64,000 nt of DNA from Rugalucina vietnamica. Its lineage: Eukaryota; Mollusca; Bivalvia; Lucinida; Lucinidae. Shown piece after piece: positions 30,201 to 34,325 of this stretch (its first letter is position 1; every line of letters starts with the position of its first letter). The position numbers and the translations under genes are program-made. The DNA is taken from the NCBI GenBank assembly GCA_964017185.1, contig OZ024879.1:42601883-42665882 (forward strand). The letters run 5' to 3'. Under the pieces are notes generated by a model. The model worked only from the letters and a program-made list of their open reading frames with translations. It did not search any database and was not told the DNA's origin.

Positions 30201-33200
30201 GACAGCCAGACTAATTGTCAGCAATCAATTGGCGGCAATCAAAAGTGACTCAGAAATTGAATGTATTAGACATGGAACAAACCTGCTGCATTAAATAACA
30301 GGGATGATTTTGGAAGGGGCCATGGGCAAAAATGCCCATTATTTTTCAAAATGGCCCCTTCATTTGGAAAGCATGGGCTATTTTTATAATGTAAAGAGAT
30401 AGGGAATGATGTTTTTTTAACATGGGAGTTTTTCTCAAAATGGCCCCTTCCATTTTTGAGCCAACAATATCCCTGAAATAACCCCTTTTCAGTAATGTTT
30501 GCGTAAAAAGCAAAAGCGAAAAATTTTACATTGAACTATTTAATAAAAACAATTGTGTTGGTTTGTTTGTTTTCTGTGTCACTCAAAAGCTATGGTCTTA
30601 TGAAGACGGGACTTCAATTTAAAGTCTCCTCAAAATATAACTTGAGAAGCCGGGGCTCAAACTTGCAACAACAGGTCCAGAGGTAATGAAAATGTTTTCA
30701 TGCTCAACTCTGTCGAGCATGAAATTTAACTGCTCATAAATGCTGAAATAGCCAACATTAATTGAAATTTTTGGGTTTACAGTAGCATAGCCAGTAGCAA
30801 CTGTTGGCATTAAATGATTTTAACATTTATGAGCAGGATAAATTTTAGACTCAGCTGAGTTGAGCATGAAAATGTTTTATATTGCATACGCCATACAACA
30901 TGCAAATTTCAAGCACAGAATCATTAAATGAATTTTGTTTTAGAGTACTTATGACAGACAAGTTTACACTGGTAATTTATGCCTAGGACTATAAAAGTAC
31001 AGCCAATCAAATTTGACAGGCTGTAAACCAAAAGACACAAGACAGATCAGAGAAATTATATGGCCAGCTGATAAGACTGTTCTTAATTAAAATTTTATCT
31101 CATTTACAGGACCAACTGTTTGTTTACTATATTTAATATGAGCCACATGATCAGAAAACCTGTCTTTAGGGTTTTAGACCAGGTCCTGAGGCTATAAAAC
31201 TTTTTTTCATGCTCAGCTTAGCTGAGACAAAAATTTATCCTGCTCATAAATGTTAAAATGCCAACAATTGTTGGCATTTTAACATTTATAGGCAGGATAA
31301 ATTACATTCTTTGGTGATCTAAACCTGAAGTTTCAATTTATTTGGACAATTTCATCATTAATCTAAGCAGTTGAAATGTCATGCTCAGCCGAGTTGAGCA
31401 TGAAAAAAGTTTTATTACCAGGTCTTAAACAAACAGGTCTTAAGACCAGGTCTTAAACAAACGACCCATACAACAGTCAAAGAAATAATTATGTTAGAAT
31501 CATGCAATTTCAAAATTTAAGAAAAGGGATAGTAATAGCCATGCAGCTAAAACAAAGGGGCTGCTTATTTGTTTGTTTGTATTGAGGTCTAGTGTCCCAG
31601 TCAACAATTTTACAGTCACATCGCAATGAAGCCTTTGCTTCCTGTGTATTGACCTGGGCCCAGTTGTTCAAAACTAACAACATCGTTAGTTAACGTTTCG
31701 TTAAAATTTCAAACATTAATATTACAAATACACTGTTATTTTTTGTTGAAAAAATGTGAGAATCCTTTGCACTGCAAAGGATTCTTACATTTTTTCAACA
31801 AAAAATAACAGTGTATTTGTTACTTTAGCTGATATTTGCTTAACAAATTTATGTCTTAACGATATCGTTAAGCTAACGATGCTTTGAACAACTGGGTCCA
31901 GGACTCTGGGGAGTTAATGTGCCTTGCTTAAGAAATAGATCAGCTCTAGCAGTGAATTGTTGAGTAATAATTCACTGTTTGGAGGTCAGTTGTAAAGAAA
32001 ATCAAATCACGAGCGCGTAGCGCGAGTGATTTATCTTCTTACAACTGACCGACAAACAGTGAATTATTACTCAACAATTCACGCACTTGAGCTGATCTAT
32101 TTCGATTCTAACACACAATAAACGCGGTAAATGTTGCTTAAACCGTCGATATTGTTCAGCTTTCCGCCATTGCATTGCAGATATCCCGCCAAATATTTGA
32201 CTGTAATGCTGGTATTTACACACATTTATTACGTTTGTTGTGCGCTAAAACGACCTTTCACCGTCTAACACTGCTTTGTGGGATAGCTGACGTCACAAAT
32301 GCCGCAAAGTAACGTCGCGCTTATTCGCCCAGTGAAATTGTTGCACAATATAACACGTTTTTTTTACTATTGGTTATATAGGCCAGGTGTGTTAGAATCA
32401 AGGACACGACATGACACAGTGCCGCCAGTAGGATTGAGCCCAGGACCTCTCAATTCCAAGTCTGATGCTCTACTACTATGCTACCGCACTACCCTGTATG
32501 CTTACTGACACTTACCGGTATTCAACTGCACAACTTGTTTATTTGTCAATTTGTATCCATGTTTTCAACAAAACAGTGCATCTACATGTACTAAGCCTAT
32601 TAGTATAACCAATGACATAACTTACATGAACGCCAGACATTGTGGGAGTAGACCTTTGAAGACCACTGACTGTCCCGACTCCTGGCGAGTAAACTGTCCT
32701 GTCTATAGGAAGACAAAACAGTGCATCTACATGTACTAAGCCTATTAGTATAACCAATGACATAACTTACATGAACGCCAGACATTGTGGGAGTAGACCT
32801 TTGAAGACCACTGACTGTCCCGACTCCTGGCGAGTAAACTGTCCTGTCTATAGGAAGACAAAACAGTGCATCTACATGTACTAAGCCTATTAGTATAACC
32901 AATGACATAACTTACATGAACGCCAGACATTGTGGGAGTAGACCTTTGAAGACCACTGACTGTCCCGACTCCTGGCGAGTAAACTGTCCTGTCTATAGGA
33001 AGACAAAACAGTGCATCTACATGTACTAAGCCTATTAGTATAACCAATGACATAACTTACATGAACGCCAGACATTGTGGGAGTAGACCTTTGAAGACCA
33101 CTGACTGTCCCGACTCCTGGCGAGTAAACTGTCCTGTCTATAGGAAGACAAAACAGTGCATCTACATGTACTAAGCCTATTAGTATAACCAATGACATAA

Positions 33201-34325: not shown

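Follow-up and report, generated by a model that had tools for sequence, protein, structure and literature searches.

An apparent boundary-crossing tandem duplication in the PASK gene of the bivalve Rugalucina vietnamica and its twelve-copy array of candidate splice units

The window analysed here, the whole stretch of 64,000 nucleotides from the bivalve Rugalucina vietnamica (assembly GCA_964017185.1, contig OZ024879.1), carries within the PASK gene a tandem array in which the end of a coding exon and the beginning of the following intron are repeated together. In our judgement it is fairly probable that this array arose as a recent duplication across an exon/intron boundary that was amplified to 12 copies, that it is splice-competent on paper and that it is mostly skipped, acting as a set of decoy donors with low and variable inclusion. 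The source of new introns and exons is usually lost, as such events tend to be found late; at the PASK locus one can view together the exon that was copied, the two breakpoints, the newly made acceptor and its 11 almost identical descendants. Since all of these are visible, the tandem-duplication route to new introns, including its donor-side version, is directly testable here. Moreover, since three does not divide the 77 nt of the repeated exon piece evenly, clear predictions follow for the reading frame at each copy number, and selection on array length is therefore testable in populations.

PASK is encoded by minus-strand exons that run from position 41553 down to position 34 of the window, and the gene had been correctly named in the original prediction. 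A search with a 1384-aa model, in which scoring was confined to the 7989 candidates that had the most words in common with it, gave 129 matches, and among the best 120 of these the top entries were bivalve PASK proteins (Ruditapes at 48% identity over 95% of the query, Mactra at 47% over 92%); the kinase part matched PDB 3dls, a PAS domain-containing serine/threonine-protein kinase (2.7e-49), and the N-terminal part matched PAS_9 (1.7e-14). The query for these protein and PAS_9 searches, as for that of molluscan N-termini, was a first gene model in which ATGTCAGGGCGT (34325) was taken as the start of exon 1. That model was overturned when exon 1 (ATGGCGGACGAATTAAACAG/GTGAAA) was located at 41553 through its conserved MADEL start, in a phase that fits the next exon, so that the former first exon became exon 2. 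Molluscan PASKs share the MADELNR start as well as RRSLP and STP motifs. The features of this part of the gene are as follows, with a slash marking each splice junction.

41534..41553, minus strand: PASK exon 1, coding part (MADELN and the first two bases of R), donor AACAG/GTGAAA; from the MADELNR start common to P0003, P0014 and P0017.
34221..34359, minus strand: PASK exon 2 (139 nt), acceptor TTTACAG/GAGC, donor TTCAT/GTAAGT, with array copy 1 as its last 77 nt; from the gene model and alignment.
34298..34307, minus strand: CTTCCTATAG in exon 2, coding (L-P-I and the first base of D), from which the acceptor-like site of copies 2-12 derives; from copy comparison and alignment.
25773..26091, minus strand: PASK exon 3 (319 nt, phase 0 start AGA ACA AAT, R-T-N), acceptor TTTTCAG; from the gene model.

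Spliced together, exons 1 and 2 read as 53 residues, and exon 3 continues in phase 0 at 26091. When exon 2 was aligned in the PASK frame with the N-termini of Mercenaria (P0123; GRRSLP and STP.MS) and Sinanodonta (P0003; RRSLP, SPA and STP), none of 1000 shuffles reached the score in either case, and 5 of 1000 did so for Argopecten (P0014); the scores of the other two frames were reached by 93-999 of 1000 shuffles and were not outstanding. In this frame CTTCCTATAG encodes part of the RRSLP motif common to other molluscan PASKs. By these alignments, array copy 1 is the 3' end of the genuine coding exon 2, its CTTCCTATAG being coding sequence, and the extra copies are copies 2-12 only, within intron 2. 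The array had been placed between exons 1 and 2 and described as twelve splice-competent 77-nt exons. The placement has to be corrected to the exon 2/intron 2 boundary; twelve copies do possess the 77 nt and a donor, but the first is authentic exon 2, leaving 11 candidate extra exons. In the alignment with the Mercenaria and Sinanodonta protein models, no array peptide interrupts the exon 2/3 region.

The predicted 145-bp array at the 5' end of PASK was recovered by TRF run on the window (32568-34309, minus strand; period 145, 12.0 copies, 99% match, 0% indels). Read on the minus strand, the unit consists of 77 nt, GTAAGT and a stretch with TGCACTGTTTTGTCTTCCTATAG at its end. Copy-by-copy comparison found the 77-nt segment followed by GTAAGT in 12 of 12 copies, and an intron-like stretch with pyrimidines and TATAG ahead of 11 of them (copies 2-12), so the donor- and acceptor-like sites claimed for the tandem units do exist; before copy 1, the same CTTCCTATAG is coding sequence and not intron-like. 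The parts of the array, all assigned by copy comparison (together with TRF for the array and the gene model for the candidate intron), are listed below.

32568..34309, minus strand: tandem array, 145-bp unit x 12, each unit joining 87 nt from exon 2 to 58 nt from intron 2.
34153..34220, minus strand: candidate 68-nt intron, the first of 11 (exon 2 donor to the acceptor-like site of copy 2).
34076..34152, minus strand: candidate cassette exon, copy 2 (77 nt).
33931..34007, minus strand: candidate cassette exon, copy 3.
33786..33862, minus strand: candidate cassette exon, copy 4 (AACTAAT replaces TACTAAT in its following intron).
33641..33717, minus strand: candidate cassette exon, copy 5.
33496..33572, minus strand: candidate cassette exon, copy 6.
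33351..33427, minus strand: candidate cassette exon, copy 7.
33206..33282, minus strand: candidate cassette exon, copy 8.
33061..33137, minus strand: candidate cassette exon, copy 9.
32916..32992, minus strand: candidate cassette exon, copy 10.
32771..32847, minus strand: candidate cassette exon, copy 11.
32626..32702, minus strand: candidate cassette exon, copy 12, with a donor at which the rest of the real intron 2 begins.

The suspected recent expansion or homogenisation was borne out, as the 77 nt are identical in all 11 of copies 2-12, and nine of the twelve copies (2, 3 and 5-11) match the consensus over the whole 145 nt. The single change in copy 4 is intronic (TACTAAT to AACTAAT), and copy 12 matches the unit up to position 135, beyond which lies unique intron sequence. 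Copy 1 differs at four sites, one in the intron part and three in the 77 nt; two of the latter three are synonymous in the PASK frame, and at the one amino-acid difference Ala is supported as the ancestral state by one relative (Sinanodonta, SPA), the gastropods in the alignment carrying other residues. All matches to the array found in the 1.09-Gb assembly were at the PASK locus, the counts from both searches being lower bounds, and within that bound the array does not resemble introner elements, similar copies of which lie in many genes.

The origin of the array can be read from its junctions. Copy 1 is entered at GAAGT/CTTCC, copy 12 is left at TTTTGT/TGAA, and all internal junctions read TTTTGT/CTTCC, with GT common to the breakpoints. 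These flanking and internal junction sequences are those of a tandem duplication that starts inside exon 2 and reaches 58 nt into intron 2. The acceptor-like site (CTATAG) was made by joining the intronic T-rich TGCACTGTTTTGT to the coding CTTCCTATAG, neither parent sequence having possessed it. A source was traced for both splice sites of the candidate introns, the donor being that of exon 2 and the acceptor consisting of exon 2 codons joined to intron 2 sequence; exonic sequence is duplicated inside the gene, as in intron gain by tandem duplication. In the sequence of events that we propose, a tandem duplication would first have crossed the PASK exon 2/intron 2 boundary (87 nt plus 58 nt), and unequal exchange or slippage would later have amplified it to 12 copies. 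Such amplification is common in this genome, since TRF found 5 distinct arrays in 20 random 10-kb pieces of it, with 138-188-bp units, 4.8-10.7 copies and a match of 72-94%, compared with 99% in PASK. An older copy had been suspected from a faint likeness of CCACGATGTCAGGGCG, upstream of copy 1, to CCACAATGTCTGGCG in the unit; the idea was dropped, as blastn of exon 2 with its upstream sequence (200 nt) against the window returned nothing beyond the 11 duplicates and short matches.

Would such units be spliced? With splice and branch matrices not trained on this species, the array donor scores 8.79 bits, second among 13 PASK donors and equal to exon 2's own, and the acceptor-like site scores 9.23 bits, higher than 8 of 14 real PASK acceptors. 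The latter value is average for the gene, so efficient use of the array acceptor is conceivable. Each unit had been credited with complete splice signals, which holds for the donor and for an acceptor-like score within the PASK range; it does not extend to the branch region, where three AGs, ending 3, 9 and 18 nt past the branch A of TACTAAT, precede TATAG at 42 nt. When the AG-free zone and a further 12 nt are considered, the array has no branch-like match above 1.0 bit, the lowest of 15 acceptors, the 14 real ones lying between 1.8 and 7.2. Nevertheless, the branch-point argument against array splicing is soft, because AG-free zones of at most 24 nt, like that of the array, occur in 5 of the 14 real acceptors, the best branch-like match lies outside the zone in 3 of 14, and TACTAAT itself scores 5.2 bits and exceeds most real PASK branch matches. 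The candidate array introns are only 68 nt long, whereas the shortest of 13 measured PASK introns has 300 nt. On account of the poor branch context and this short length, the majority of PASK mRNA would presumably still have exon 2 spliced directly to exon 3; the array may act as a row of decoy donors from which cassette inclusion is low and variable.

The reading frame bears on what any inclusion would do. Exons 2 and 3 meet in phase 0 and every array exon adds 77 nt, so that the frame meets no stop as far as exon 7, where the test translation ended, when 0, 3, 6 or 9 array copies are included, meets a stop at the exon 3 junction with 2, 5, 8 or 11 copies, and meets one 36 codons into exon 3 with 1, 4, 7 or 10. 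Inclusion of all 11 extra copies would consequently truncate PASK, unless translation restarts at an ATG (MSGVH) that each copy holds in frame with exon 3. Since 11 x 77 nt ends in that junction stop, full inclusion is disfavoured: the frame counts argue against it as the predominant form where the allele is functional, and do not argue against skipping, partial inclusion or regulatory loss. Copy numbers not divisible by three would be expected to end in a stop and to feed nonsense-mediated decay; with 3, 6 or 9 copies the protein would grow by 77 residues for every three included. The original prediction had envisaged a cassette that varies N-termini or 5' UTR length; the array position is coding, and most inclusion patterns shift the frame, those with 3, 6 or 9 copies keeping it.

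An efficiently spliced cassette, in which the number of array exons used varies and either alters the length of the PASK N-terminus or routes the message to decay, is unlikely in our view. It would fit the donor and acceptor-like scores, which fall inside the range of real PASK sites, the identity of these sites in all 11 extra copies and the in-frame ATG of every copy; the 77-nt segment is also free of stops in all three frames, which is a weak sign of coding use, as 776 of 20000 shuffles are likewise stop-free. However, recent amplification alone accounts for the identity of the sites, the branch context is weak, and a 77-nt exon leads to a junction stop when all 11 extra copies are used. 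Nor did protein searches reveal such a product: an array peptide of two periods had no match at E <= 1 among 89 candidate proteins of about 85-270 aa, none of the 8 matches to a 427-aa N-terminal query was recognisable as the same species, and no same-species full-length protein was present among the best 120 of the 129 matches to the 1384-aa query, where the highest identity was 48%.

The opposite view, that of an inert intronic minisatellite which starts at an exon end by accident and has no effect on splicing, gains from the 5 arrays in random pieces, given that amplification evidently requires no function, and from the chance expectation for splice sites. When 145-mers were drawn at random from 264 kb of the genome (draws with N skipped) and joined head-to-tail, donor and acceptor together equalled the strength of the array sites in 70 of 40000 cases, and in 7567 of 40000 at a loose threshold. 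A fairer null simulated duplications spanning the other 12 real PASK donors (1812 of 20000 draws, with units <100 nt, were dropped); an acceptor equally good was created in 905 of 18188 (5%), and one of at least 4 bits in 51%. By these figures, it is not very unusual for a donor-spanning duplication to look splice-competent, though the array is in the best 5%. Complete inertness is nonetheless distinctly improbable, as a strong intact donor stands in each copy and donor-repeating arrays can alter splicing, as reported for ABCA7 (PMC5954066). A modulo-3 switch, in which array exons would be used in varying number and alleles with 3n extra units would give an N-terminally extended PASK and all others decay, so that minisatellite length would set PASK dosage between individuals, strikes us as a long shot. 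That nine copies are identical might suggest an assembly artefact with a lower true copy number, which is extremely improbable given that copies 1, 4 and 12 differ and that 1.74 kb would be short relative to long reads, should the assembly have been built from them.

The duplication with subsequent skipping that we favour has partial counterparts elsewhere. In the potato RdRp gene, as described in PMC4974935, an intron was gained through a boundary-crossing tandem duplication in which the duplicated part was the acceptor side and coding sequence supplied a cryptic donor, with proof from RNA-Seq. What the two genes have in common is a duplicated stretch with an exon/intron boundary in it; the signals are for the most part inherited, with one splice site drawn from formerly coding sequence. 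The potato event occurred once, whereas the PASK array duplicates the donor side and has a putative cryptic acceptor and 11 extra copies. It would thus be a mirror image of the potato case. The same source (PMC4974935) recounts the AGGT model of Rogers, with ATP2A1 and the multiple 24-bp duplications of fission yeast; there, too, tandem duplication provides the GT and the AG, and multiple copies occur in yeast, but the GT in PASK is the donor of exon 2 and the unit includes intron sequence.

According to the account in PMC5954066, the VNTR in intron 18 of human ABCA7 has a unit that begins with the real exon donor, and splicing to the donor of the next unit retains one unit and shifts the frame; exon 19 skipping increases with VNTR length and unit retention does not. 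A real exon donor is likewise repeated in each PASK unit (12 of 12 copies), but the ABCA7 units, as described there, are of 25 bp and supply donors only, with no exon piece or acceptor, and that VNTR is polymorphic and has been tested. The PASK array unites both traits, as the donor is repeated and every unit brings a new candidate acceptor and exon. With mutually exclusive exon arrays of the Dscam type (PMC1397879) it shares tandem exon copies within one gene region; that type is defined by copies which are diverged and interchangeable in frame, whereas the PASK duplicates are identical (11 of 11), shift the frame when one is included and are candidate exons only. Neither a PASK exon array nor a donor-side version of intron gain by tandem duplication was found in searches of open-licence PMC papers.

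Further repeats and duplications were seen around the locus. The PASK introns hold three TRF arrays of 451-467-bp units with 2.1-2.9 copies each (12819-14095, 18414-19484 and 27211-28182), and similar unit lengths recur in the random loci L012, L014 and L025. The real exon 7 (20985-20851), a PAS-domain exon, is closely preceded by a decayed duplicate of itself at about 21205-21090 on the minus strand, with 72% identity over 116 alignment columns and a 17-bp internal repeat (TRF 21140-21176) that breaks its frame; this duplicate may represent an old exon duplication that was perhaps at one time used alternatively. The PASK of another bivalve, Sinanodonta (P0003), also shows repeat expansion, in the form of a tandem protein repeat, RGEDGDRRDCKSEDSGRHSG, within the linker that follows its second PAS region. 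On the plus strand, long open frames that by eye resemble the reverse transcriptase of a non-LTR element occupy 42161-44334, just upstream of PASK exon 1, and exons that look cadherin-like by eye occupy 61604-64000, with a TGTC microsatellite (61809-61959) starting at the end of one of them.
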